The notes under the pieces are model-generated. The model did not search any database. It saw nothing but the letters and a program-made list of their open reading frames with translations, and was not told the origin of the DNA. A stretch of DNA of 64,000 nucleotides from the NCBI GenBank assembly GCA_003281795.1, contig QCAW01000002.1, forward strand, positions 1 through 64,000. Direction: 5' to 3'. Source of the stretch: Pelagibacteraceae bacterium AG-345-F21. Its GTDB lineage: Bacteria; Pseudomonadota; Alphaproteobacteria; Pelagibacterales; Pelagibacteraceae. The translations under genes were made by a program, and so were the position numbers. The stretch's first letter is position 1. Each line of letters begins with the position of its first letter. Shown here piece after piece: positions 34,787 to 52,573 of this stretch.

Positions 34787-35953
34787 TTAGGCGCTTCTGT
34801 AGAGTTTTGTCATCACGAACTCTTTATGACCCAAAGCTTCTGCACAAGTAAGTCTACCGTTTGCTACTCTTAACATTGTTTTTATTAGTTCATCACCAGC
34901 CTCTGACAAATTCATTTCTCTTGATAAAATTTTTGAAACATCACAATCCACATGTTCTTTCATCAATTTTGCAGTTAAAGGATTTGCTGTAAGTTTTACA
35001 ACTGGTTCAATTGGGTTTCCTATAATATTTCCTTGTCCAGTCGGAAATAAATGAATGTTAAACCCACCAGCTGCTTGTAAAGTAACACACTCTGCTGCAG
35101 CTGAAGAAGTATCCATAAAGTATAAACCTTTACCCTTTTTTGGTTCTTCAGCAGGCTCCAACACATCAATAAACTTTAGGTTTCCTATTTTTTGAAAGTT
35201 TCCAAAAGCTTTTTCTTCGATAGTAGTTAAGCCACCTGCAATATTTCCAGCTGTTGGTTGGCTTTCTGAAAGGTCATCTGTAGCTTCCTTTAAAATAAAA
35301 TCATTATATGCATTCCATGTCCTCATAAATTTATCTTTTGCTTCTGAAGTTGCTCCTCTAGAAGCACAAACTGTTTCTGCTCCAGTTAATTCAGATGTTT
35401 CACCAAAACACAAGTGAACACCATAAGGCTCCAGTTTTTCCATCAAATTTCCTACTGTAGGATTTGATGCTAATCCAGAAGTCGTGTCAGACTCTCCGCA
35501 TTTGACTGATATCCATAAATCACTTAAAGGACATTCTTCTCTTTGTTTTTCAGATGCCCACTGAGAAAATTCTTGAGCCTTTTTTGAGGCTTTCATAATT
35601 GTACCAATATCTCCTGTTCTTTCGATGTGAAATCCTTCAACAGGTTTACCTGTTTTAGCAATAGCGTCTACAATTTTTTTAGTCCATTTTGGCTCAATGC
35701 CTATTACGATTACAGCTGCAACATTTGGATTTTTTCCAGTTCCAATCATAGTTCTAAAATGTAATTCTAGGTCAGCTCCAAATTGAAGCCTTCCATATGA
35801 ATGAGGAAGAGCAATAGTACCTTTAATGTTATTTGCAACTGCTTCGGCACACGCGTTAGAAATATCATCAACTGGAAGAATAATTACATGGTTTCTTGTT
35901 CCTGATCTTCCATTCTCTCTTTTATAACCTAAAAAACTTTTTGGGATTTCCAT
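34787..35953 (-). CDS. suyB: (R)-sulfolactate sulfo-lyase subunit beta (UxaA-family large subunit)
   Basis: The 388-residue protein is of the altronate dehydratase/UxaA C-terminal family: [22 protein letters not shown] near the N-terminus, a [21 protein letters not shown] block (about 168-188) and [22 protein letters not shown] near the C-terminus. Separate small and large subunits of about 95 and 390 residues are as in SuyAB, which splits sulfolactate into pyruvate and sulfite. The sulfonate neighbours support suyB over altronate dehydratase, though the sequence alone cannot exclude another sugar-acid substrate. It ends four bases from the convergent TauE gene. Confidence 0.8.
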
Positions 35954-35957
35954 TAAA

Positions 35958-36245
35958 TTACCATTTTTTTGTTTTTACATTATGAACATGAACATGATCA
36001 CCTTTTTTAATTTCTTTGACAACTTTACCAATATCGTGACCATATTTTAAGATTGTATCTCCTACCTTTAAATCTTTTAGTGCAATTTTATGGCCTAATG
36101 GAACTTCACTTGCAGATGAGACTTTAGTTGATTTATCATTTTCCATGATCCAGGCATTACATTCTTGGCCTTTTTTAGTGGTTTCTATTACAACTACTCC
36201 AACGTTGTCTTTTTCGTCGTGAATAATAAGGTCTGGCTGTGACAT
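35958..36245 (-). CDS. suyA: (R)-sulfolactate sulfo-lyase subunit alpha (SAF-domain small subunit)
   Basis: The 95-residue SAF-domain protein resembles the small domain of UxaA-type lyases: [57 protein letters not shown]. The His-rich end and the GH-I-A-L motif bind the catalytic metal jointly with the large subunit. It directly precedes suyB with a four-base gap and is divergent from xsc, sharing a 73-base promoter region. Confidence 0.85.
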
Positions 36246-36318: not shown

Positions 36319-38100
36319 ATGGCAAAAATGACAACAGAAGAAGCTTTTGTAAAAGTTTTACAAATGCATGGTATAGAGCATGCGTTTGGAATAATAGGTT
36401 CTGCTTTTATGCCTATCTCGGATATTTTTCCAGACGCTGGTATTACATTTTGGGATGTAGCTCATGAAACTAATGGCGGATTAATTGCTGATGGATACAC
36501 AAGAGCGACAGGAAAAATGTCAATGGTTATTGCTCAGAACGGACCAGGCATAACAGGATTAGTCACGCCTATTAAAACCGCTTATTGGAATCATACGCCA
36601 TTACTTTTAGTAACCCCACAAGCAGCAAACAAAACAATGGGACAAGGAGGATTTCAAGAAGTAGAGCAAATGAATTTATTTAAAGACATGGTTTGCTACC
36701 AAGAAGAAGTAAGAGATCCATCAAGAATGGCAGAAGTTTTAAATCGAGTTATTGAAAAAGCAATTAGGGGATCAGCACCAGCTCAAATTAATGTACCAAG
36801 AGATTATTGGACACAAGTTATTGATATAGATCTACCACCGATTGTTAGATTAGAGAGACAAGCAGGAGGTACAGAAGCAATTGATAAAGCAGCAAAATTA
36901 TTATCTGAGTCAAAATTCCCAGTCATTTTATCTGGAGCTGGAGTCGTTATTGGTGGAGCAATAAATGACTGCGTAAAATTAGCAGAAAAATTAGACTCCC
37001 CAGTTTGTTCTGGTTACCAACATAATGATAGTTTTCCAGGTAGCCACCCTTTAGCTGTAGGACCTTTAGGATATAATGGGTCTAAAGCAGGAATGGAATT
37101 AATTTCTAAAGCAGATGTAGTTTTAGCTTTAGGTACAAGATTAAATCCTTTTTCTACACTACCGGGATATGGAATAGACTACTGGCCAAAAAATGCAAAA
37201 ATAATTCAAGTCGACATGAATTCTGACAGAATTGGGCTAACTAAAAAAGTAACCGTAGGAATTTGTGGAGATGCAAAACTAGTAGCACAACAGTTATTAA
37301 ATAAACTATCTCCAAAAGCAGGAGATACAGATAGAAAGAAAAGAAAAGATTTAATTCATCAGACCAAATCAGCATGGCTTCAAAAATTATCAAGTCTAGA
37401 TCATGAGGATGATGATCCAGGTACAGTTTGGAATAAGGAAGCAAGAGAAAGAGATAAAGACAGAATGTCTCCAAGACAAGCATGGAGAGCTATACAGGCT
37501 GGAATGCCAGAGAATGTAATCATATCAAGCGATATTGGAAATAATTGTGCTATAGGCAATGCTTACCCAACTTTTGAAAAAGGAAGAAAATATTTAGCAC
37601 CAGGGTTATTTGGTCCTTGCGGTTATGGATTTCCTGCAATTTTAGGAGCAAAAATTGGTTGCTCAGATACACCTGTAATTGGATTTGCTGGTGATGGAGC
37701 TTTTGGAATAAGTATGAATGAAATGAGTTCGTGTGCTCGAAAAGAATGGCCTGCTATTTCCATGGTTATTTTTAGAAACTATCAATGGGGTGCAGAAAAA
37801 AGAAATTCTATTTTATGGTTTGACGATAATTTTATTGGAACTGAATTAGACCCAGAACTAAGCTATGCAAAAGTTGCTAATGCTTGTGGTTTAAAAGGTG
37901 TAACAGCAAAGACCATGGAAGAGACCACTAAAGCAATAAAACAATCATGTGAAGATCAAAAAAAAGGAATTACAACTTTTATTGAGGTAATTTTAAATCA
38001 AGAACTAGGTGAACCATTTAGAAGAGATGCAATGAAAAAACCAGTAAAAGTTGCAGGTATAAACAAAACTGATATGAAGTCCCAAAAAGTATTAAACTAG
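36319..38100 (+). CDS. xsc: Sulfoacetaldehyde acetyltransferase
   Basis: Xsc is a thiamine-diphosphate enzyme converting sulfoacetaldehyde and phosphate to acetyl phosphate and sulfite. The 593-residue length is typical. HGIEHAFGIIGSAFMPISDIFPDAG..FWDVAHETNGGLIADGY (N-terminal pyrimidine-binding domain with its Glu) and MGQGGFQEVEQM are Xsc-like. The thiamine pyrophosphate motif is GDGAFGISMNEM with RNYQWGAEKRN downstream. It is the meeting point for taurine (tpa, 57208) and possibly isethionate. It is divergent from suyA and its stop overlaps the peptidase gene. Confidence 0.95.
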   Translation: MAKMTTEEAFVKVLQMHGIEHAFGIIGSAFMPISDIFPDAGITFWDVAHETNGGLIADGYTRATGKMSMVIAQNGPGITGLVTPIKTAYWNHTPLLLVTPQAANKTMGQGGFQEVEQMNLFKDMVCYQEEVRDPSRMAEVLNRVIEKAIRGSAPAQINVPRDYWTQVIDIDLPPIVRLERQAGGTEAIDKAAKLLSESKFPVILSGAGVVIGGAINDCVKLAEKLDSPVCSGYQHNDSFPGSHPLAVGPLGYNGSKAGMELISKADVVLALGTRLNPFSTLPGYGIDYWPKNAKIIQVDMNSDRIGLTKKVTVGICGDAKLVAQQLLNKLSPKAGDTDRKKRKDLIHQTKSAWLQKLSSLDHEDDDPGTVWNKEARERDKDRMSPRQAWRAIQAGMPENVIISSDIGNNCAIGNAYPTFEKGRKYLAPGLFGPCGYGFPAILGAKIGCSDTPVIGFAGDGAFGISMNEMSSCARKEWPAISMVIFRNYQWGAEKRNSILWFDDNFIGTELDPELSYAKVANACGLKGVTAKTMEETTKAIKQSCEDQKKGITTFIEVILNQELGEPFRRDAMKKPVKVAGINKTDMKSQKVLN

Positions 38101-41925: not shown

Positions 41926-41954
41926 TTGACTTCAAGGCTCTTATCAAGTTTAAT
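41926..41954 (+). promoter_or_regulatory. Probable dctP promoter
   Basis: TTGACT (41926-41931) and TTTAAT (41949-41954) are separated by 17 bases and lie about 30 bases before the dctP ATG. A GTTGCAAC palindrome just upstream in the divergent gap could be an operator. Confidence 0.45.
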
Positions 41955-41985
41955 TTTAGTAATTAACAAACAAAACGGGGGAATA

Positions 41986-43080
41986 ATGAAAAAATTATTA
42001 ACTGTAGTTTTAAGTTTAGCGGTATTTATTGGTTTTTCAATGAGCACTGCAAACGCTAAAACTTTAAAATGTCAGACCGTTCTTAACACAAAAGCTGATG
42101 AAGTGAAGATGTTAAAGGACTTTACTGACACTGTAACAGAATTAACTGATGGTTCATTGAAATTTGAAATTTTACCAGCAGGTGCTGTTGTAGGAGTAAA
42201 AGAAACATTAGATGCAGTTGACAAAGGATTAATCGACTGTGGATTTGCTTGGACGCATTATTGGTCTGGCGATCATCCTGCAGCTATGTTATTTGGTTCA
42301 CCAGTAGCAGGTGGTGGAGTAGGTATAGATAACTTAGCATTCTTATCTTGGTTCCAATATGGTGGTGGTAAAGAATTATACGACCAACTTTGGAAAGAAA
42401 TGGGAAGAGACATAAAAGGATTTATGCTTCAACCTGTAGGTCCAGAAGCTTTAGGCTGGTTTCCAAAGCCAATTAAAGATATGGCTGACTTTAGAAAATA
42501 TAAGTTCAGAACACCTCCAGGAATTCCTGGCCAAACATATAAAGACATTGGTATAGCATCTGTTGCAATGGGTGGTGGAGATATTCTTCCGGCACTACAA
42601 GCAGGTACTATTGATGCAGCAGAATGGTGTTGTCCAAAACCAGATTTAACATTTGGTTTTCAAAAGGTATTAAAACACTATTACCTACAAGGTTTACACC
42701 AAGTAGTAGTAAATGCTGATTTTTATATAACTGGAAAAACTTATAAAAAAATGACTGCTCACGAGAAAAAATCTCTTGAAGTTGCTGCAAACGCTTCGCT
42801 AGCTAAGTCTTTAAGCTACAGAATCTATGAAAATGGAAAAGCTTTAAGAGAACTTACTACTAAGCATGGTGTTATCTTAGAAGATACTCCTTCAGACTAC
42901 TTTAAAGAATATATGGCAGCAGCAAAGAAAACATTGAACAAAAACGCAGCGGATAATAAATTTTTCGCAAAAGTTTACGATTCAATGAAAGAATTTGCTG
43001 ATATTGCTGTACCTTTCTGGAGTGGTGCACAAATGTCTAACGCTAAGCTAGGAATGGCTCACGCAGCGACATTAAAATAG
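41986..43080 (+). CDS. dctP: TRAP transporter solute-binding protein (DctP)
   Basis: The ATG at 41986, behind a GGGGG site, gives 364 residues; an earlier in-frame start has no ribosome site. A signal peptide is present (cleavage after TANAK region). The body has the DctP signatures FKEILPAGAVVGVKETLDAVDKGLIDCGFAW and FPKPIKDMADFRKYKFRTPPGIPG, then ALQAGTIDAAEWCCPKPD, the specificity segment. The substrate is uncertain, DHPS (HpsK-like) or isethionate (IseK-like). It is followed by a strong terminator before dctQ, allowing it to be made in excess. Confidence 0.9.
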   Translation: MKKLLTVVLSLAVFIGFSMSTANAKTLKCQTVLNTKADEVKMLKDFTDTVTELTDGSLKFEILPAGAVVGVKETLDAVDKGLIDCGFAWTHYWSGDHPAAMLFGSPVAGGGVGIDNLAFLSWFQYGGGKELYDQLWKEMGRDIKGFMLQPVGPEALGWFPKPIKDMADFRKYKFRTPPGIPGQTYKDIGIASVAMGGGDILPALQAGTIDAAEWCCPKPDLTFGFQKVLKHYYLQGLHQVVVNADFYITGKTYKKMTAHEKKSLEVAANASLAKSLSYRIYENGKALRELTTKHGVILEDTPSDYFKEYMAAAKKTLNKNAADNKFFAKVYDSMKEFADIAVPFWSGAQMSNAKLGMAHAATLK

Positions 43081-43102
43081 TCACTAAGTAAAGATTATAA
43101 TG

Positions 43103-43137
43103 AAGCGGATCATTTAATTGATCCGCTTTATTTTTTT
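43103..43137 (+). terminator. Intrinsic terminator between dctP and dctQ
   Basis: A perfect 10-bp stem AAGCGGATCA (43103) with TGATCCGCTT (43119), a 6-base loop and the tail TATTTTTTT form a classical intrinsic terminator inside the operon. It lies 22 bases after the dctP stop. Confidence 0.9.
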
Positions 43138-43153
43138 AAAAAAAAAGGAGCCA

Positions 43154-43765
43154 ATGCCTTTAAGAACGAAATTAGATAAGTCAGATGAAATGATCGCTGA
43201 AAGGCGTGGAGGCTCAGGCAAGATGCCAGACGATATGCCATTATGGATGGCGAAAACTATTACATCAATAGATAAATTCAGTAAGAGAGTAGGCAGTGTA
43301 GTTTGTTGGATTTTAATGCCATTAATTTTTGCAATGACTTATGAAGTAATAATGAGAAAATTGTTTTTAGCACCTACAATTTGGGCTTATGACATTAGTA
43401 GATTTTTATACGGAGCTTTATTTATGTTAGGAGCAGGTTATGCTCTTTCCAAAGGAGTTCATATTAGAGCAGATTTTTTATACAGAAATTTTAAAACTAA
43501 AAATCAAGGACTTGTAGATTTTTGGTTATATATTCTATTCTATTTTCCAGGTTTAACAGTTTTTCTTTATATGACTATTGGTTATGTAGGAGAGTCTATA
43601 CAAAGAGGAGAGAGGGGAATGGACACGACATGGATGCCATATATGTGGCCAATTAAATCATGTCTACTTATAGGAATAGTTTTTCTTTTAATCCAAGGTA
43701 TTTCAGAATTATTAAAAAGTTATTGGGCTGCCAAAAAAGGTGAATGGCCTGGAGAAACTAAATGA
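43154..43765 (+). CDS. dctQ: TRAP transporter small membrane subunit (DctQ)
   Basis: The ATG at 43154 follows AAGGAG and gives 203 residues; a TTG at 43118 lies within the terminator stem. An N-terminal ~45-residue cytoplasmic extension precedes four helices. The EVIMRKLFLAPTIWAYDISRFLYGALFMLGAGYALSKGVHIRADF block is typical of DctQ. It forms the inner-membrane complex with DctM. The dctM start overlaps its stop. Confidence 0.9.
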   Translation: MPLRTKLDKSDEMIAERRGGSGKMPDDMPLWMAKTITSIDKFSKRVGSVVCWILMPLIFAMTYEVIMRKLFLAPTIWAYDISRFLYGALFMLGAGYALSKGVHIRADFLYRNFKTKNQGLVDFWLYILFYFPGLTVFLYMTIGYVGESIQRGERGMDTTWMPYMWPIKSCLLIGIVFLLIQGISELLKSYWAAKKGEWPGETK

Positions 43766-45096
43766 TTGCTGAATTAATTGATCCAGCAGTACTAGGTTTT
43801 ATTCTAGTTGGCGTAATGCTTTTTGCTATATTTGTCGGATTTCCTATTTCATTTACATTAATTTTTTTAGGATTTGTATTTGGTTATCTAGGATTTGGAA
43901 AACTAGTCTTTTATTTAATGACTTTACAATTTTCAATGGTGATGACCGAACAAACACTCGCCGCCGTTCCACTCTTTGTTTTTATGGGCATTATGATGGA
44001 GCAAGCTGGGTTAATGGAGAGGTTGTTTTCAGCATTTCAACTAATGTTAGCAAGAGTCAGAGGATCACTTTACTATGCAGTTTTATTTGTTTCTGTAATA
44101 TTTGCTGCAGCAACAGGAATAGTCGGAGCTTCAGTTACAATTTTAGGAATTATGGCTGCAAAATCAATGAATAGATCCGGATACAATGTTCGTTTAGCTG
44201 CTGGAACAATTACTGCAGGAGGAACTCTAGGTATTTTAATTCCTCCGAGCATCATGCTTGTTGTAATGGGACCAATAATGGAAATTCCTGTTATTGATTT
44301 ATTTGCTGCTGCAATTTTTCCTGGAATACTTTTAGCTACTTTATATGCCGCTTACACAACAATTAGATGCATGATGGACCCTACTTTAGGTCCTCCTTTA
44401 CCTGAGGACATGAGAGCTACAAGCATGACTAAGGTTTGGATTGAATTCTTTTTAGGTTTAGTACCTCCAGCCGCTTTAGTCTTTGCTGCGCTAGGAAGTA
44501 TTCTATTTGGATTTGCAACACCTACTGAAGCGGCAGGATGTGGAGCGATGGGCGCTCTTCTTCTATCTTTAGCTTACAAAAAATTAACATTACCAAAATT
44601 ACAAGAAGCTTTAGTAAAAACTTTAGAGATAACTGCTTTGATTATGGTTTTAGTGGCTGCTTCAAATTTTTTTGGTGCAGTATTTGCAAGATTAGGAACG
44701 CCGACTCTCTTAACTGAATTTTTACTAGGTCTTGAAATGAATAGGTACTTAATTTTAGCAATGATAATGGTGATGATATTCTTACTAGGTTGGCCTTTGG
44801 AATGGGTACCAATAGTAATGATTATTATTCCAATTATTTTACCATTAGTAGAAGCATTAGGTTTTAATTTGACTTGGTTTGCTATTTTGGTTGCCGTTAA
44901 TCTTCAAACCGCTTGGCTGTCTCCACCTGTCGCACTTTCAGCATATTTTTTAAAGGGTGTTGTGCCTGAATGGGATTTAAAAGATATTTATTATGGAATG
45001 ATGCAATTTATGGTCTTGCAAATTATTGGATTAGTATTAATAGTAGTATTTCCACAAATTGCTTTGTGGTTACCAACATTACTTTATGGCAGTTAA
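43762..45096 (+). CDS. dctM: TRAP transporter large membrane subunit (DctM)
   Basis: The 444-residue transport subunit has about twelve helices. AVPLFVFMGIMMEQAGLMERLF, GASVTILGIMAAKSMNRSGYNVRLAAGTITAGGTLGILIPPSIMLVVMG and GFATPTEAAGCGAMGALL are the conserved DctM/SiaM sodium-binding and gating segments. It overlaps dctQ by four bases and the HpsN-like gene by eleven, tying the transporter to that dehydrogenase. Confidence 0.93.
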   Translation: MIAELIDPAVLGFILVGVMLFAIFVGFPISFTLIFLGFVFGYLGFGKLVFYLMTLQFSMVMTEQTLAAVPLFVFMGIMMEQAGLMERLFSAFQLMLARVRGSLYYAVLFVSVIFAAATGIVGASVTILGIMAAKSMNRSGYNVRLAAGTITAGGTLGILIPPSIMLVVMGPIMEIPVIDLFAAAIFPGILLATLYAAYTTIRCMMDPTLGPPLPEDMRATSMTKVWIEFFLGLVPPAALVFAALGSILFGFATPTEAAGCGAMGALLLSLAYKKLTLPKLQEALVKTLEITALIMVLVAASNFFGAVFARLGTPTLLTEFLLGLEMNRYLILAMIMVMIFLLGWPLEWVPIVMIIIPIILPLVEALGFNLTWFAILVAVNLQTAWLSPPVALSAYFLKGVVPEWDLKDIYYGMMQFMVLQIIGLVLIVVFPQIALWLPTLLYGS

Positions 45097-46372
45097 ATAT
45101 ATTAAAAAAGCAGCGAAGACTCCAGAGACGGATGATCATAAAACACAAGCCGCGGTCCAAGATATTCTTAATGACATAGCAAAAAGGAAAGAAGAAGCAC
45201 TCAAAGAACTTAATAAAAAATTTGATAAGTATGAGGGAGAAGTAATTGTTTCTAAAGAAAAAATAGAAGAAGCAATTAAAAAAGTAGATCAAAAAACAAA
45301 AGATGATGTAAAATTTGCCCATGAAAGAATTAAAAAATTTGCTGAACACCAATTAAAAAGTATGAACAATGGATTTGAAGTTGAATTATCCAAAGGATTA
45401 TTTGCTGGACAAAGATTGATCCCAGTAGATACTGCTGGTTGTTACATTCCAGGAGGAAGATATGCGCATATCTCTTCAGCTGTAATGGCTATTACACCAG
45501 CGAAAGTAGCTGGTGTAAAAACTATTATTTGTGCCAGTCCTCCTAAAGATAAAGATGGAGCTAATCCTGGAATAATTTTTGCTGCAAATCATTGCGGTGC
45601 TGATGTAATAATGAATTTAGGTGGTGTAGCAGCAATAGGTTCAATGACACATGGATGTTTTAAAAATCCCCCAGTAGATTTTTTAGTAGGGGCAGGAAAT
45701 CAATATGTAGCTGAAGCTAAAAGAATTGTTTATGGTAAAGTAGGTATAGATCAATTTGCTGGACCAACTGAAATAGCTATCATTGCAGATAAGACAGCTG
45801 ATAAAGAAATTGTAGCTGTAGATCTTGTTGGTCAATTAGAGCATGGTTATAATTCTCCAGGTTGGTTATTTACCACTGATAAAGAATTAGCTGATTTTAC
45901 AATGAAAAGGGTACCAGAATTAATTAACGAATTACCAGAATTAGCTAAAGTAAACGCTACTGCTGCATGGAAAGATTATGGGGAAATAATTTTATGCGAT
46001 ACTAATGAGGAAATGGCAGAAGTTAGTGACAAGTATGCTTCAGAACATCTAGAAGTTCATGCTGAAAATTTAGACTGGTGGTTAAAAAGATTAAGAAATT
46101 ATGGATCATTATTCTTAGGAGAAGAAACTACAGTTGCTTACGGAGACAAATGTTCAGGAACAAATCACATTCTTCCAACAAAAGGTGGCGGAAGGTATAC
46201 AGGTGGTTTATTTGTAGGAAAATTTATAAAAACTCTTACTTTTCAAAGAATGACAAAAGAAGCTACAGAAGTAGTAGGGGCTACAGCTGCGAGACTAGGG
46301 AGAGCAGAAGGCATGGAAGCCCACGCTAGAACTGCAGACGTAAGATTAAGAAAATACGGCTTTTCAAATTAA
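45086..46372 (+). CDS. hpsN: HisD-family dehydrogenase, probable sulfopropanediol 3-dehydrogenase
   Basis: The start at 45086 (428 residues) lies in the dctM stop overlap; a start at 45059 is further inside dctM. It matches the histidinol-dehydrogenase fold: TAGCYIPGGRYAHISSAVMAITPAKVAGV, GGVAAIGSMTHGC, GPTEIAIIADKTAD, QLEHGYNSPG (with the metal ligands), SEHLEVHAEN and GKFIKTLTFQRM. HpsN, from the same fold, oxidises 2,3-dihydroxypropanesulfonate to sulfolactate. The TRAP genes before it, SuyAB in the window and its distance from his genes favour HpsN, but a biosynthetic hisD cannot be fully excluded. Confidence 0.8.
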   Translation: MAVKYIKKAAKTPETDDHKTQAAVQDILNDIAKRKEEALKELNKKFDKYEGEVIVSKEKIEEAIKKVDQKTKDDVKFAHERIKKFAEHQLKSMNNGFEVELSKGLFAGQRLIPVDTAGCYIPGGRYAHISSAVMAITPAKVAGVKTIICASPPKDKDGANPGIIFAANHCGADVIMNLGGVAAIGSMTHGCFKNPPVDFLVGAGNQYVAEAKRIVYGKVGIDQFAGPTEIAIIADKTADKEIVAVDLVGQLEHGYNSPGWLFTTDKELADFTMKRVPELINELPELAKVNATAAWKDYGEIILCDTNEEMAEVSDKYASEHLEVHAENLDWWLKRLRNYGSLFLGEETTVAYGDKCSGTNHILPTKGGGRYTGGLFVGKFIKTLTFQRMTKEATEVVGATAARLGRAEGMEAHARTADVRLRKYGFSN

Positions 46373-47376
46373 TGTATGCACTAGTTTATACTGGTACTAA
46401 TAAAATAGATTTCAGAGAAGAAAAAAATCCAAAAACTAAACCAGGTGAGTCTCTAATAAAAGTAAAAGCTTCAGGAATTTGTGGTTCAGATATGCACGCC
46501 TTCCACGGTAATGACGAAAGAAGAATACCTCCTTTAATATTAGGTCATGAAGTAAGTGGAACCAGTCTAGATGGTAAATTTAAAGATAAAGATGTTGTTA
46601 TAAATCCATTAATAAGTTGTGAAAATTGTGATTATTGTAAAAATGAGAGGGAACATCTATGTCCAGAAAGAACAATGATTGGGATGAGTACGCCAATTAA
46701 AAGAGAAGGGGGTTTGGCAGAATTCGTTTCAGTACCAGAAAAAAATATTTTTGAAGTACCAGAAAAATTAAGTATTAAAGAGGCAGCATTAGCTGAACCC
46801 ACAGCTGTAGCTTTACATGGAGTTTTATTAGCCGAACAAAATTTAAAAAAACCATTATCCGAATGCAAAATATTAATTCAAGGAGCAGGTGCGATAGGTT
46901 TGTTATGTGGTTTAGTACTAAATAAAGAGAAAAAAGCTACTAATATTATAATGTCAGATCCAAACAAAAAAAGATTAGATGTATGTGGTAAATATTTAAA
47001 AGCAAATTTTGTATCTCCAAACGATAAATCGATTAAAGAAAATAATTTTGATTTGATATTAGAGTCTGTCGGTCTCGAAGCTACACGACATCAAGCTATT
47101 AAATCAATAGCCCCTGGTGGCACTATTCTACATATAGGATTAACACAACCGTCTGGAACTTTTGATTTTAAGAAATTAACAATTCAAGAAGTGACATTAG
47201 TTGGTACATACTGTTATACAAATAAAGATTTTCAAAAAACTTTAGAAATTTTAAAAGAAAAAAAATTAGGGGATTTAGGTTGGATTGAGTATAGAGATCT
47301 TAAAAAAGGGTCCGAAGCATTTCAAGAAATACATAATGGTTCTTGTGTTGCTCCTAAAATCATACTTATTCCTTAG
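46372..47376 (+). CDS. Zinc-dependent medium-chain alcohol dehydrogenase
   Basis: The 334-residue protein has GICGSDMHAFHGND..IPPLILGHE for catalytic zinc binding, the four-cysteine structural zinc loop (CENCDYCKNEREHLCPER, about 84-101), and a nucleotide motif IQGAGAIGLLCGL. It belongs to the threonine/sorbitol dehydrogenase-like branch. The TAATG overlap with the HpsN-like gene suggests it oxidises an intermediate of the same pathway, perhaps the second alcohol of a sulfonated diol; this is inference. Confidence 0.85.
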   Translation: MYALVYTGTNKIDFREEKNPKTKPGESLIKVKASGICGSDMHAFHGNDERRIPPLILGHEVSGTSLDGKFKDKDVVINPLISCENCDYCKNEREHLCPERTMIGMSTPIKREGGLAEFVSVPEKNIFEVPEKLSIKEAALAEPTAVALHGVLLAEQNLKKPLSECKILIQGAGAIGLLCGLVLNKEKKATNIIMSDPNKKRLDVCGKYLKANFVSPNDKSIKENNFDLILESVGLEATRHQAIKSIAPGGTILHIGLTQPSGTFDFKKLTIQEVTLVGTYCYTNKDFQKTLEILKEKKLGDLGWIEYRDLKKGSEAFQEIHNGSCVAPKIILIP

Positions 47377-47463
47377 TTCTTCTTATAGTTGTAGACAAAT
47401 TGCATACCTGAAACGACTATTTAACATAGTTAAACTTAGTAAAAGTTAATTAGTATTAGAATT

Positions 47464-47841
47464 ATGAAAAAAATTATTACGATTATGTTTTTATTTTTCT
47501 TTTCCACATTACAAGCTGGTGGGCATTTAAGTGAAAAAGAAAAACAAGCTACATTAAAATGTACAGGGCTATATTACGCTAACAGTATGATACCTCAGGG
47601 CACTTTAGAACTAGACAAGATTGTTTATTCTATTTCAGCAAAAAAATTTTTAACATCATATTTAATTAAAGAGGGAGTAAAAGAAGATTTTATTAATACA
47701 GAACTTAATAAATCTATCGATGAACTTCATGGAAAACCATATGATGAAAAAAAAACAGGTGATTGTGATAAATATATTTACAAGTTAATACCAGAGGCAA
47801 AGGGAGAAATAGACAAATTAGTAAAATCTGGAATTTATTAA
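47464..47841 (+). CDS. Small secreted protein of unknown function
   Basis: The 125-residue protein has a signal peptide (cleavage near LQAGG). The mature part is Lys/Glu-rich and has two cysteines (LKCTGLYYANSM and TGDCDKYIYKL), which may form a disulfide. I do not recognise the family. It follows the dehydrogenase gene by 87 bases and is directly followed by the DUF1330 gene, one base away, so it may belong to that set. Confidence 0.65.
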   Translation: MKKIITIMFLFFFSTLQAGGHLSEKEKQATLKCTGLYYANSMIPQGTLELDKIVYSISAKKFLTSYLIKEGVKEDFINTELNKSIDELHGKPYDEKKTGDCDKYIYKLIPEAKGEIDKLVKSGIY

Positions 47842-47842
47842 A

Positions 47843-48130
47843 ATGAGTGGATACGTTATAGCCAACATTAATGTGAAAAATCCAGAGGCTTACAAAGAAT
47901 ATGTCGGCAAAGTAAAACCAACCGTTGAAAAATTTGGAGGAGAATATCTAGTAAGAAACGGAGAATTTGAAGTTATTGACGGCGAGTGGAAGCATCCAAG
48001 AACTGTTGTGATTAAATTTCCAACTTATGAAAAAGCTTTAGAGTGGTATAATTCTGAGGAATACAAACCTGTTAAACCTATTCGATTAGCAAACTCAGAA
48101 GCCAATGGAATAATAATTAAAGGAGTTTAA
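47843..48130 (+). CDS. DUF1330 family protein (ferredoxin-like fold)
   Basis: The 95-residue protein has the DUF1330 pattern GYVIANINVKNPEAYKEYVGKVKPTVEKFGGEYLVRNGEFEVIDGEW and RTVVIKFPTYEKALEWYNSEEYKPVKPIR. The family forms dimeric alpha/beta barrels similar to antibiotic-biosynthesis monooxygenases, with no known reaction in most cases. It is the first of four such small proteins in a 1.7-kb run. Confidence 0.88.
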   Translation: MSGYVIANINVKNPEAYKEYVGKVKPTVEKFGGEYLVRNGEFEVIDGEWKHPRTVVIKFPTYEKALEWYNSEEYKPVKPIRLANSEANGIIIKGV

Positions 48131-48160
48131 TGTCAAAATTAATTTTAAAAAAGGAGAAAC

Positions 48161-48451
48161 ATGATAGTTAAAATAGAGGGACCAATTGCAACTTTTGCAA
48201 AGTGGAAAGCGATGGTTCACAGCAATTCAGAAAAGATTAAAAAATACGGTATGACATTTCTTTATGCTGGAACAGAAAAAGATAATGACTCAAAAATCAC
48301 TACTATTATTAGATTTGATACAATGGATGGTCTTAAAGCTTTTAAGGCCGATGAGGAACTTCATAAAGAAAGAGCAGCAGCTGGAGTAGTTTTAGAAAAA
48401 TCCGTTACAACTCCAATGTGTGAAGATTTGTTAGAACAATATAAAGGATAA
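48161..48451 (+). CDS. Small dimeric alpha/beta-barrel-like protein
   Basis: The 96-residue protein shows the beta-alpha-beta-beta-alpha-beta layout of the ferredoxin-like superfamily: an MIVKIEGPIATF start, a helix with KAMVHSNSEKIKKYG, strands with MTFLYAGTEKD and KITTIIRFDTMDGLKAFKAD, and a C-terminal strand. I could not place the exact family. It has a good AAGGAG site seven bases before its ATG. It is probably co-transcribed with its neighbours. Confidence 0.7.
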   Translation: MIVKIEGPIATFAKWKAMVHSNSEKIKKYGMTFLYAGTEKDNDSKITTIIRFDTMDGLKAFKADEELHKERAAAGVVLEKSVTTPMCEDLLEQYKG

Positions 48452-48465
48452 CTAAAAGGATAAAT

Positions 48466-48882
48466 ATGATAGATAAATTTGGAAACGCTTTTTATTTAAT
48501 AATTTACTTAGCTCATTTTATAATAATTGGTAGTTATGCTTACCAATTAGTTTTTGATACTAAAAAATTTCTAAAAGGCAGAGGAGTAGATAAGACAGCG
48601 ACTTTAATAACTAGATTTGCTGGCTCATTCATGGTCGCAATAGTTTTAATGGCCATCTATGTAGCCTTTGTAAGGTCAGGTGGATTATTTGCTACTTGGG
48701 CGTTTTTTAACTTAGTTTTTATAATCAACGTTTCAATATTAGCTGCAAATTTTTATACATTAAAAATTGATAAGACGGGTTTAACTAAAAAAACAAGAAA
48801 CGATGGGATATATGTGCCACTTGTTCTTGTAATTATTAGCGCAGTTCTTTGCTACGGTTTAGCTGATAAGATTTACGTTTAA
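48466..48882 (+). CDS. Four-helix membrane protein of unknown function
   Basis: The 138-residue protein has four hydrophobic helices separated by short basic loops (KKFLKGRGVDKT, LKIDKTGLTKKTRNDG). Nothing in it is diagnostic. A ribosome site AAGGAT precedes the start. It sits in the middle of a set of small soluble ferredoxin-like-fold proteins, all with short spacing, so it may anchor them to the membrane. Confidence 0.7.
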   Translation: MIDKFGNAFYLIIYLAHFIIIGSYAYQLVFDTKKFLKGRGVDKTATLITRFAGSFMVAIVLMAIYVAFVRSGGLFATWAFFNLVFIINVSILAANFYTLKIDKTGLTKKTRNDGIYVPLVLVIISAVLCYGLADKIYV

Positions 48883-48898
48883 TTAAAAAGGGAAAATA

Positions 48899-49192
48899 AT
48901 GGCAAAATTTATGAATATAGTTAGGTGTAAAGTAAAACCATCTAGCAGAGATGATTATCTAAAAATAATTGATGAGATGCCAAAGTTCGATGGTCAAATT
49001 TCAGCAAAATACGTTGAAACAAAACCAAACGAATTTTTTATGATTGGTGAATGGAATTCTGAAGATAATATAGCTAAAGCAAGACCAAAAATGATTGAGT
49101 TTTTGGATAAAGCTAGACATACTTTGGAAGAACTGTCCTCAGAGCTAGGAGTTACAGATCCTCACTCTGGAACAGTTATTATTGAAAAATAA
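48899..49192 (+). CDS. Small ferredoxin-like-fold protein (antibiotic-monooxygenase-like)
   Basis: The 97-residue protein reads MNIVRCKVKPSSRDDYLKII, then GQISAKYVETKPNEFFMIGEWNSEDNIAKARPKMIEFLD, a pattern typical of ABM-like dimeric barrels. No catalytic residues can be named with confidence. It follows an AAGGGAAA site. It overlaps nothing but lies 16 bases from the membrane protein and 13 bases from the GYD-domain gene. Confidence 0.75.
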   Translation: MAKFMNIVRCKVKPSSRDDYLKIIDEMPKFDGQISAKYVETKPNEFFMIGEWNSEDNIAKARPKMIEFLDKARHTLEELSSELGVTDPHSGTVIIEK

Positions 49193-49205
49193 GAAAGGGG
49201 GAGAA

Positions 49206-49529
49206 ATGGCAAAATTTATAACTCTAGGAGTTTATACCGCTAAAGGACTTGGTGGCTTTGTCAGCAATCCATCTACAGACAGAAAAGCCGCAACATCTGC
49301 GCTTGCTGCTGCTGGTGGTGCAAAAGTAACTCGTTATGCTGGGTTGAGAGGGAAGTACGACTTTATGGCAGAAATCGAAGGTACTTTTGAACAAGCTGCT
49401 GCGGCTGCTATGGTAGCAGTATCAAGTGGAGCAGTATCAGATTTTACTATTTTAGAAGACGTAGATCTAAATGGAATAGCAGAAACTGCAAAAAAAATGG
49501 CAACTACATATAAAGAGCCAGGAAAATAA
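49206..49529 (+). CDS. GYD-domain protein
   Basis: The ATG at 49206 follows AAGGGGG; an earlier start in the same frame overlaps the previous gene. The 107-residue protein is a GYD-domain (dimeric alpha/beta barrel): ITLGVYTAKG, an Ala-rich helix, AGLRGKYDFMAEIEG with the defining G-x-Y-D, and an Ala-rich second helix. The function of GYD proteins is unknown. It closes the run of small barrel proteins. Confidence 0.85.
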   Translation: MAKFITLGVYTAKGLGGFVSNPSTDRKAATSALAAAGGAKVTRYAGLRGKYDFMAEIEGTFEQAAAAAMVAVSSGAVSDFTILEDVDLNGIAETAKKMATTYKEPGK

Positions 49530-50237
49530 TTATTTTCTAAAGCTAATACACTTTAAGGTATCGGTGAATTTTATTTGATTTTTGTATTTCAACTCAATTT
49601 CATTGATACCTTTAACCAATTGAACATTTGATATATTTAATAAACAAGAAATATATCTACTTTTAATCATCTTTATATATTTTTGTTTTGAAACTTTTAC
49701 TTTAAAATGAAAATTCGTTTCATTTATTTTCAGTAATTTTTTTTTTACTATTCTAAGTAAAGATTCATCTCTTTTTAAACTTTTATCTAGTTTTTGTTTC
49801 ATTTTTTTAAAGCAAGGTATTTTATTATTTTTTGTTTTAAGAGAAAAAATTAATAATTTACCACCTGAATTTAAATTATTTTTACTGTAGTTTAATAAAG
49901 AGACAAGTTTTTTTTTTGAAAAAAAGTGAATGGTTTGTTTTATAATAATTAAATCATATTTTTTATTTTTTTTGAGATAACTAATAGCATCAGATTTCAT
50001 AAATATTATATTTTTTTTGATATTTTTATTTCTTACAATATCTATTCCTATAGGTTTATTTCTAAATTTATATTTTTTTTGCAAAAAGCTGATTATATTT
50101 GCTCTACCACAACCAATATCGATAATCTTTGTATTCTTATTAAATTTAAATTTAGATTTTAAAAATTTATGAAAATTAAGGATATATTTTTCCGATGATA
50201 ACCAATTTTTATTATCCCAGTTTTTTAAAAGTATCAT
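49530..50237 (-). CDS. Class I SAM-dependent methyltransferase
   Basis: The 235-residue protein has SAM motif I IIDIGCGRANIISFLQKKY (about 41-59), an acidic motif II IGIDIV and motif IV YDLIIIKQTIHFF, with a strongly Lys/Asn-rich C-terminus. The substrate is unknown. It ends the long leftward operon that begins with tauA and overlaps the pta-like stop by one base. Its link to sulfonate metabolism, if any, is unclear. Confidence 0.75.
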   Translation of the reverse strand: MILLKNWDNKNWLSSEKYILNFHKFLKSKFKFNKNTKIIDIGCGRANIISFLQKKYKFRNKPIGIDIVRNKNIKKNIIFMKSDAISYLKKNKKYDLIIIKQTIHFFSKKKLVSLLNYSKNNLNSGGKLLIFSLKTKNNKIPCFKKMKQKLDKSLKRDESLLRIVKKKLLKINETNFHFKVKVSKQKYIKMIKSRYISCLLNISNVQLVKGINEIELKYKNQIKFTDTLKCISFRK

Positions 50238-51145
50238 TACATAGCTACTACAGCAGCAGCTATTGAGGCTAACCTAGCTTGAGTATCATCTGCTCTACTT
50301 GTTATAACAACTGGGACCTTCCCACCTACAACTACGCCAGCTGCACAAGCTCCCATAAAAAAAATCATCATTTTCACTAAAGCATTTCCAGTTTCTATAT
50401 TAGGTACTAACAATATATCTGTATTACCAGCAACAACATTTTTAATTCCTTTAATTTGTGCAGCTTTTTCAGAAACTGAATTATCGAATGCCATTGGTCC
50501 AAATACTTCTGCGTTCAAACCTTCTTTTTTTGCTCTTTTGGTAAGCTCGTTTGCTTCTAGAGAACTAGGCATGCTATCTAAAACCTCCTCAGTTGCTGAT
50601 AGCACTGATACCTTAGGTTTTCTAATTCCTATTCTACACGCAAAATCTATCGCATTTTTTAATATGTGCATTTTAGTTTCTAATTTTGGTAATACATTTA
50701 ATGCTCCATCAGTAATGATAAATGGTTTGTCATTTTTTTCTAAAGTCATATGCCAAATATGACTTAGTCTTTTTTTTCCTATTAAATTCAAATCTCTTTT
50801 TAAAACTGCTTTCATAAGTACGTCTGTATGAATATGTCCTTTAACAATTATTTTTACTTTATCTTCACTTGCAAGTTTTGCTGCGATTGGAGCAGTACTA
50901 TTTTCATCTGGCTCATTAATTATTTCATATTTAGAAATATTCCAGTTTAATTGTTTAGCATTGTTTTCAATAACTGACTTGTCTCCTATAAACACTGGTA
51001 TGATTAAATTTGAATCTACAGCTTGTCTAGCAGACTCTATTGAAACTGACTTTACTGCGTTAACTATTACTGCTTTTATCGGTCCTTTTGTTTTAGCTAA
51101 TTTAAGTAAATTTTCAGGACAAATAATTTTTTTTTTACTTAACAT
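50237..51145 (-). CDS. pta: Phosphate acetyltransferase (phosphate acetyl/butyryltransferase family)
   Basis: The 302-residue protein contains IIPVFIGDKSVIE, VKGHIHTDVLMKAVLKRD (about 98-115), TDGALNVLPKLE, and the closing NTDILLVPNIETGNALVKMMIFF and GAAAGVVVGGKVPVVITSRADD segments of the PTA/PTB superfamily. Short PTA forms serve taurine and sulfonate pathways, turning the acetyl phosphate made by Xsc into acetyl-CoA. The co-location with tau genes and xsc supports this. It overlaps the upstream comC-like gene by eleven bases. Confidence 0.88.
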   Translation of the reverse strand: MLSKKKIICPENLLKLAKTKGPIKAVIVNAVKSVSIESARQAVDSNLIIPVFIGDKSVIENNAKQLNWNISKYEIINEPDENSTAPIAAKLASEDKVKIIVKGHIHTDVLMKAVLKRDLNLIGKKRLSHIWHMTLEKNDKPFIITDGALNVLPKLETKMHILKNAIDFACRIGIRKPKVSVLSATEEVLDSMPSSLEANELTKRAKKEGLNAEVFGPMAFDNSVSEKAAQIKGIKNVVAGNTDILLVPNIETGNALVKMMIFFMGACAAGVVVGGKVPVVITSRADDTQARLASIAAAVVAM

Positions 51146-52142
51146 TTAATTTTTCCATTTCTCTTAAAATTTTTGTAGGAATAGATATATCTTTATTTAA
51201 ATTCTTTTTATACGTCTTATTTTTTCTTTCACCTGGATATAAAATATTTGAAAATCCTTTCGCTTTCGGAAGTTTTTTGACAAGCTTTATATTTTTCTGC
51301 ATTTCTTTAACGAATCTATTACCGATAAAAATTTTTGGATTAATAGTAATAAATAAATGGCCCATATTTTGGGGTCCTGAAAAATCATCAAAAGGATCTT
51401 TTGTTTTTCCTCCGTGGCTACTGCCTGTGAAAACCCCGCTTAAAATATCAACCATCCATGCTAAGCCAGAACCTTTAAAACCTGCAATTGGTAATTGAGT
51501 ACCCTTCAGAGCTTCTTTAGCGTTAGTAGTAATTCTTCCTTTTTTGTTAAGAGCAACACCGTAGGGAATTTTTAAACCTAACTTATCAGCTCTTCGTATC
51601 TTTCCTCTGTTTATCATTGACGTCGAAGCATCATAAATAAAAGGAACTTTTCCCGTAGGAACTCCAAAACAAATAGGGTTTGTTCCAAACAGAGATTTCT
51701 TTGCACCATGTGGAGCTAAAGCAGCAGGCGCATTAGTAAAACAAAAAACCATTAATTTATTATTTACTGCCTGTTCTGCATAAAAACTTGAAAGTCCGTA
51801 ATGTCCGCTTTTTTTTATAGCCACTAAACCTATTCCGGTTTTCTTTGCATTTTTGATTGCTTGTTTAATACCTATATCAGCACTCACAAAACCAATACTG
51901 TTATCTGCATTAATGTAAGAAACTGAAGAACTAATTTTCTTTATTTTAATTTTAGGTCTAGGATTAATTATTTTTGCTTTAAGTCTATCACAGTACATTT
52001 TTAGCCTTGCTAACCCATGACCTGTAGCTTCTAGAATTTCAGCTTTAACTATGTAGCTCGATGAAATTTCAGAATGTTTGTTTGAAAGTTTATGTTTAAG
52101 AAAAATTTGTTTTACTTTTGATTTTACAAGATTTTTTTTCAC
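51135..52142 (-). CDS. Ldh2-family malate/L-lactate dehydrogenase-like protein, possible sulfolactate dehydrogenase
   Basis: The 335-residue protein has the family's ATGHGLARLKMYCDRL near residue 40, GIGLVAIKKSGHYGLSSFYA (catalytic His, about 115), FGTNPICFGVP, MVDILSGVFTGSSHG and FITINPKIFIG. The fold includes lactate, malate, ureidoglycolate and (R)-sulfolactate (ComC) dehydrogenases. Within a sulfonate operon ComC-like use is attractive, producing or removing sulfolactate via sulfopyruvate; the sequence cannot fix stereochemistry. It overlaps both neighbours by a few bases. Confidence 0.8.
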   Translation of the reverse strand: MKKNLVKSKVKQIFLKHKLSNKHSEISSSYIVKAEILEATGHGLARLKMYCDRLKAKIINPRPKIKIKKISSSVSYINADNSIGFVSADIGIKQAIKNAKKTGIGLVAIKKSGHYGLSSFYAEQAVNNKLMVFCFTNAPAALAPHGAKKSLFGTNPICFGVPTGKVPFIYDASTSMINRGKIRRADKLGLKIPYGVALNKKGRITTNAKEALKGTQLPIAGFKGSGLAWMVDILSGVFTGSSHGGKTKDPFDDFSGPQNMGHLFITINPKIFIGNRFVKEMQKNIKLVKKLPKAKGFSNILYPGERKNKTYKKNLNKDISIPTKILREMEKLNVK

Positions 52143-52573
52143 TTAAATTTTTTATTTCCTTTTATTTCCCAAAAATTCGTTCTTTGTTCTGGATTCTCAA
52201 CCAGATTTTTGCACATCATGCCATAATCTTTAGCAAGTAAGGAAAAATCTTTTTTTGCCAATTCAACAAATTTGTTTACATTATCTTTAGTCATTTGAGA
52301 CATAACCTCAGGATTTAATCCCATAATTTCTCCTAGATCATAATTATATTTTAAAGATACATCTGCACTATTTTCCAAACTAGTAATTATGCTTTTATCT
52401 TTTCCAGCATTTTTAAAACTTTGAGCTGCAACTTTGTAAAAACTATAACAATTTACATAATCTTTTTGAATATTTTCCATAACATATTTAGCAATTTTTT
52501 TTTCTTTAGCATTTTCATTTGCATTTAAAGGGAAAGGAGCAATAATTAAGATTAACAATAATATTTTTTTCAT
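52139..52573 (-). CDS. Small secreted helical protein of unknown function
   Basis: The 144-residue protein has a signal peptide (cleavage near PLNANENAK), then an all-helical, charged mature part with two cysteines (NCYSFYKVAAQSF and MMCKNLVENPEQ). The NFWEIKGNKKFK end is not family-diagnostic. It is coupled to the genes on both sides by four-base overlaps, so it is translated with the racemase and dehydrogenase. Function unknown. Confidence 0.65.
   Translation of the reverse strand: MKKILLLILIIAPFPLNANENAKEKKIAKYVMENIQKDYVNCYSFYKVAAQSFKNAGKDKSIITSLENSADVSLKYNYDLGEIMGLNPEVMSQMTKDNVNKFVELAKKDFSLLAKDYGMMCKNLVENPEQRTNFWEIKGNKKFK

Follow-up and report, generated by a model that had tools for sequence, protein, structure and literature searches.

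Known systems

The known relatives of the ABM, SnoaL and cupin families are mostly small enzymes that work without organic cofactors and act on hydrophobic or reactive compounds. In the formicamycin cluster, ABM and cupin barrel proteins have been proposed to form a multienzyme complex that includes one non-catalytic ABM member (PMC6689052). The HpsN protein of SAR11 bacteria is an active DHPS dehydrogenase (PMC11131964). The first-pass annotation of the locus described here knew of no reported system with its layout, and none was found in the open-access papers searched. None of these papers links SAR11 with GYD, DUF1330 or dimeric-barrel proteins, and the two that combine SAR11 with ABM do not, from their titles and abstracts, deal with SAR11 ABM genes.

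Organization of the gene run

The window analyzed is a stretch of 64,000 nucleotides from Pelagibacteraceae bacterium AG-345-F21. It contains a modular operon-like unit composed of a conserved 5' element, a secreted-type protein, barrel proteins, a membrane protein, an ABM-like protein and a GYD-domain protein. The ORF listing of the window places six genes, not five, on the plus strand at 47464-49529. The first gene, sec125 (47464-47841), encodes a protein of 125 aa with a signal-like N-terminal stretch and cysteines at positions 33 and 101, and is separated by a single base from the gene encoding the DUF1330 protein (47843-48130). The genes bar2 (48161-48451), mem (48466-48882), abm (48899-49192) and gyd (49206-49529) encode a DUF3764/DUF1330-like dimeric-barrel protein that occupies a variable slot, a 138-aa membrane protein predicted to form four helices, an ABM-like protein and the GYD-domain protein that closes the run, respectively. 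The conserved start of gyd is the ATG at 49206, and a TTG at 49182 opens a longer ORF. The first-pass annotation had reported five ORFs in one direction with gaps of 13 to 30 bases. All five are present on the plus strand, and the gaps from the DUF1330 gene through bar2, mem and abm to gyd are 30, 14, 16 and 13 bases; the set was incomplete, however, in that the sec125 gene and the 5' element ahead of it (47388-47437, plus strand) had been overlooked.

Of the 72 long ORFs in the window, 10 are preceded by a purine-rich core, and four of the 10 belong to the run (hypergeometric P = 9e-4 for at least four of five genes). The strong ribosome sites noted earlier ahead of four of the five genes are enriched in the run, and their rarity, which had been stated for the genome, was counted across the window.

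The median pN/pS values of the five reported genes are 0.08-0.11 (0.10 for the DUF1330 gene), and that of sec125 is 0.18, whereas a methyltransferase gene convergent with gyd (49530-50237, its end being 49530) has a value of 0.33 and evolves much faster than the run. The low values relative to this neighbour indicate that the run consists of real genes under strong purifying selection. The methyltransferase gene is displaced by inserted genes in some genomes. A further small secreted-type protein of 144 aa is encoded at 52139-52573; it is kept in many loci with 62-93% identity and is possibly similar in kind to sec125.

Protein families and folds

Profile search assigned sec125 to no Pfam or NCBIfam family. 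The DUF1330 protein is a full-length member of PF07045 (residues 2-95, 112.9 bits, E = 9e-33, above the cut-off) with a dimeric ferredoxin-like fold, and its solved relatives are PDB 2fiu (E = 2e-17) and 3lo3. The bar2 protein scores just under the DUF3764 cut-off (23.5 bits against 24) and matches DUF1330 in profile-profile comparison (E = 1.2e-5). The sister family and a separate order both have relatives of bar2, at 30-38% identity.

The abm protein scores 17.3 bits against the Pfam ABM profile (PF03992), below the cut-off of 23.1, and its relative in the sister family scores 14.8 bits. Its AlphaFold model has a b-a-b-b-a-b arrangement (pLDDT 79). The best Foldseek matches of this model are ABM structures (4dn9 with E = 6e-5; 4zos with a TM score of 0.74-0.76), and it resembles SnoaB, RslO4, FasU, LsrG and IsdI. 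The modelled abm monomer has the ferredoxin-like fold of the dimeric-barrel type. Heme oxygenases of the IsdG type carry a catalytic Asn-Trp-His triad. In abm, N6 and W52 are invariant, W52 ends strand 3, and His 74 is replaced by Asp in two of eight relatives; the motif LGVTDP.SG near the C-terminus is also invariant.

The gyd protein lies above the PF08734 cut-off (34.5 bits against 31.4), has no informative PDB sequence relative and gives only weak profile comparisons. No significant profile links were found between the GYD, c14 or SCO4226-like families and the other barrels. The proposal that all four soluble members share the dimeric-barrel fold is supported for the DUF1330 protein by 2fiu and 3lo3, for bar2 by its profile match and for abm by the model and Foldseek, whereas for gyd it rests on the Pfam grouping, by which the GYD domain would be a dimeric alpha/beta barrel.

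The mem protein is modelled with low confidence (pLDDT 66) as four long helices. It has no Pfam family above cut-off, no PDB structure match at E<=0.001 and no PDB sequence relative. Its two larger loops (31-44 and 98-116) are basic and, judging by this charge, probably cytoplasmic.

Conserved 5' element

The element has the pattern GTTGTAGACAAATTGCATACCTG...TTTAACATAGTTAA in the window. Column conservation across loci extends over about 45 bp, GTTGTAGACAA.TTGCATACCTG.AAT...TTTTAACATAGTTAA, and the start of the first ORF usually lies about 52 nt beyond TGCATACCTG. The block holds TTGT-AG-ACAA, an inverted repeat of the kind bound by GntR-type regulators, and probably contains the putative promoter/operator of the run. 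An Rfam search for a known RNA or riboswitch gave no match. The element is present in 75 of the 80 species loci compared and also heads arrays that have no mem gene (L146, L147 and L152). A search of 61 genomes gave one match each in 24, and 22 of the 24, in the window's own genome and 21 same-genus genomes, lie at or near the head of the cassette as far as coordinates could be compared. The other two (in G014 and G001) are off-site with three mismatches each, and a reversed-pattern control was nearly empty. The idea that the element is one site of a larger regulon was rejected on the single match per genome and on there being only these two off-site matches.

Composition across species loci

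Relatives of the same genus and of the same order carry the run. Its composition was compared in 80 loci, one genome per species, and the counts are therefore of species and not of independent events; genes were called with a simple ORF caller and labelled by their best BLAST match, and many of the genomes are incomplete. The abm gene directly follows mem in 72 of the 80 loci; 74 loci contain a GYD gene and 76 contain sec125, and in 73 at least one barrel gene lies ahead of mem. The variable slots are filled by DUF1330, DUF3764-like and SCO4226-like proteins, by a family without Pfam match, by a second DUF1330 or GYD protein and, in a few loci, by SnoaL. The commonest line-ups include sec125-DUF1330-c14-c22-mem-abm-(gyd2)-gyd, in which c14 has no Pfam match and c22 is SCO4226-like by a weak match. 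The line-ups sec125-bar2-mem-abm-gyd (nine loci) and sec125-DUF1330-mem-abm-gyd (eight loci) are also common. In five loci a SnoaL protein takes the place of abm and gyd. The unit reaches up to eight genes, and its members in the genomes examined vary within a pool of about ten small folds for ligand binding (DUF1330, DUF3764-like, SCO4226-like, ABM-like, GYD, SnoaL, cupin and unnamed families).

Members also occur as solo copies, such as a DUF1330 gene on contig 17 of the window's own genome, gyd alone in G005 and mem alone. The solo second DUF1330 gene (L153, 5390-5677) lies beside a permease gene and a phosphoribosyltransferase-like gene, as does its counterpart in L156, which hints at a purine-linked role of this paralogue. 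In some Pelagibacter genomes (L115, L116 and L117), a single mem gene directly follows rho, with ferrochelatase and HemJ-like genes close by and no barrel gene beside it.

A modular composition at a variable locus would also suit an anti-phage or other conflict system, but such a role is extremely improbable. None of the six proteins matched PADLOC, the sole PHROGs match was marginal (abm, E = 0.086), mem has no relative in viral contigs, and the run encodes no nuclease, protease or NTPase and has low pN/pS. A defence role was rejected on the PADLOC result and the lack of a viral relative of mem.

Distribution in other lineages

A second family of the order also has mem, abm and GYD, with identities of about 30%, about 47% and about 40%, at sites apart from one another. 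Nineteen arrays were found in the sister family, each on one strand, with a median gap of 15 nt and 30-50% identity. These arrays follow the order GYD-(ABM)-SnoaL-(cupin)-(others)-DUF3764-like and are headed by GYD where complete. The commonest is GYD-ABM-SnoaL-SCO4226-like-DUF3764-like, and others include a cupin or a 125-aa protein. The mem gene is not found within these arrays and occurs alone in this family.

In a separate alphaproteobacterial order (represented by G304), some genomes contain a smaller set, with DUF3764-like, DUF1330 and SnoaL-like genes divergent from GYD. In this order, c14, cupin and SnoaL-like genes adjoin mem at L231, a cupin gene and a small protein gene are convergent with mem at L239, and tandem mem genes lie about 10 kb from a barrel set at L211. 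ABM-like, cupin and GYD-like genes lie close together in a fourth lineage (G252). The mem gene was detected in 85 of 150 relatives, in 47 of the 60 G304-order genomes, in only two further genomes of 190 across the class and in none of 298 other genomes across the phylum. Tandem mem-type pairs beside a peroxiredoxin-like gene and another four-helix membrane gene were observed in the G304 order (L211, L227, L230, L249 and L250). In another alphaproteobacterium, three tandem GYD-type genes lie beside a peroxiredoxin-type gene (L213, 5212-6106), and a GYD-like gene adjoins a similar peroxiredoxin in L214.

The related arrays in the sister family and the separate order show that the set is conserved past close strains, as the earlier proposal of a functional system required. 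The probability that four such genes cluster by chance is about 1.5e-6 to 2e-3, according to the number present and assuming random gene order. These results bear on the view that the run is a loose accessory operon, in which small stress or housekeeping proteins with no relation to one another and no common function are encoded behind a shared promoter at a shared insertion hotspot. This view is rather unlikely. It accommodates the variation of neighbours and members, the solo copies of DUF1330, gyd and mem, and a region in which sulfonate genes are present in only some genomes, but it does not sit well with the reassembly of the same fold families in the sister family, the separate order and the fourth lineage, with the low chance of clustering or with the strong selection.

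Because the sister-family arrays have no mem and mem stands alone there, a joint function of the barrels with mem is lineage-specific at best. For the same reason the membrane-bound complex suggested earlier cannot be general; such a complex may exist in Pelagibacter. The same observation weighs on a second alternative, in which the barrels serve as structural or regulatory subunits, assemble into hetero-oligomers and attach to the basic loops of mem, so that membership would set ligand specificity and not catalysis, for example in sensing or transport. Several different dimer-forming barrels are encoded in one operon, mem comes directly after a barrel gene and is separated from abm by a very short gap, its two larger loops are basic, and the non-catalytic ABM protein of the formicamycin cluster (PMC6689052) provides a precedent. 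This mixed assembly is nevertheless unlikely: besides the arrays without mem, SnoaL and cupin proteins have other folds, and the invariant charged residues retained in gyd, abm and bar2 fit catalysis equally well.

Neighbouring sulfonate genes

A DHPS-type locus lies directly upstream of the run in the window (41926-47376) and comprises dctPQM (TRAP transporter), an HpsN-like dehydrogenase and a zinc alcohol dehydrogenase. UxaA-like proteins (34787-36245) and a thiamine-enzyme gene (36319-38100) resemble sulfonate-cleaving enzymes. Downstream of the run, on the other strand, a phosphate acetyl/butyryltransferase-type gene and a sulfolactate-dehydrogenase-like gene (NF040650, 236 bits, below the cut-off) are found at 50237-52142.

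The first-pass annotation had suggested that the run deals with a sulfonate by-product, which would make it an accessory of dihydroxypropanesulfonate breakdown. The upstream genes of the window, the activity of SAR11 HpsN on DHPS (PMC11131964) and the presence of hpsN and dctM beside the cassette in 44 of the 74 loci with enough upstream sequence agree with this suggestion. Both genes are absent, within about 8 kb, in 28 of the 74 loci, however, 28 of the 31 loci that lack hpsN still have the 5' element, and the sister-family arrays adjoin an SDR gene and not sulfonate genes. The suggestion did not hold up against these counts and is now improbable. An intrinsic sulfonate function was rejected on the 28 loci and the retained 5' element, and the sulfonate link of the run is positional.

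Proposed function

The products of the run are tentatively interpreted, with confidence well short of even, as small cofactor-free proteins that catalyse reactions of, or bind, small molecules of lipophilic or reactive character. The barrel proteins would handle such molecules one after another or in mixed complexes, and in lineages that link mem to the array its four-helix product may hold or feed these substrates at the inner membrane. Each lineage would exchange members according to the compounds that it meets. In this respect the kit would resemble the barrel set of aromatic polyketide pathways (cupin, ABM and SnoaL proteins), and it would modify or clear compounds made elsewhere. No ketosynthase or chain-length factor was seen on inspection of the window ORFs at 30-53 kb or of the flanking ORFs of related loci, and the kit would therefore act on compounds that are not made nearby.

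The mem-abm-gyd core, the short gaps, the confined 5' element, the purifying selection, the breadth of distribution, the fold of abm and the precedent of the formicamycin barrel proteins point to this metabolite-handling kit, as does the finding that mem has small barrel or cupin genes in its vicinity in the G304 order too (L231 and L239). Against it, no substrate-supplying pathway is visible beside the arrays, and the neighbours differ between lineages. A broader proposal, which is doubtful, is that streamlined marine alphaproteobacteria possess an undescribed kit of interchangeable barrels under one dedicated promoter, assembled by each lineage and tied in Pelagibacter to mem and a secreted partner, that takes up, modifies or neutralises dissolved lipophilic or reactive metabolites.

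Few unused genes persist in genomes of about 1 Mb, yet a large share of SAR11 species retain this unit, on which selection is strong, and the same folds are reassembled in other marine lineages. If the metabolite-handling kit is real, seawater would pose a chemical challenge, or offer a resource, that present models of SAR11 leave out. The unit can be tested directly through its single-copy 5' element and its interchangeable slots.

Comparison with described systems

The SAR11 DHPS catabolic locus (hpsN, dctPQM) is directly upstream of the run in the window and in many genomes, but the run is a separate unit with its own 5' element, and the DHPS genes are absent beside the cassette in the 28 of 74 loci noted above. 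The DUF1330 protein is a full-length member of a family with solved structures (PF07045; 2fiu and 3lo3) but is embedded in a multi-barrel operon. GYD genes (PF08734) are isolated or form GYD-only tandems in the other members of the class that were viewed, whereas the gyd gene of the run is part of mixed arrays. The abm protein is like the ABM superfamily (PF03992) in its predicted b-a-b-b-a-b monomer and differs from it in its sub-cut-off score and invariant LGVTDP.SG tail. The barrel and cyclase sets of type II polyketide pathways (the cupin ForR and the ABM proteins ForS and ForU of formicamycin, SnoaB and SnoaL) resemble the run in their small single-domain ABM, cupin and SnoaL folds, whereas the run has no ketosynthase or other synthase genes close to it and adds GYD, DUF1330, DUF3764-like and SCO4226-like proteins together with membrane and secreted-type proteins, and its hosts are streamlined marine bacteria.
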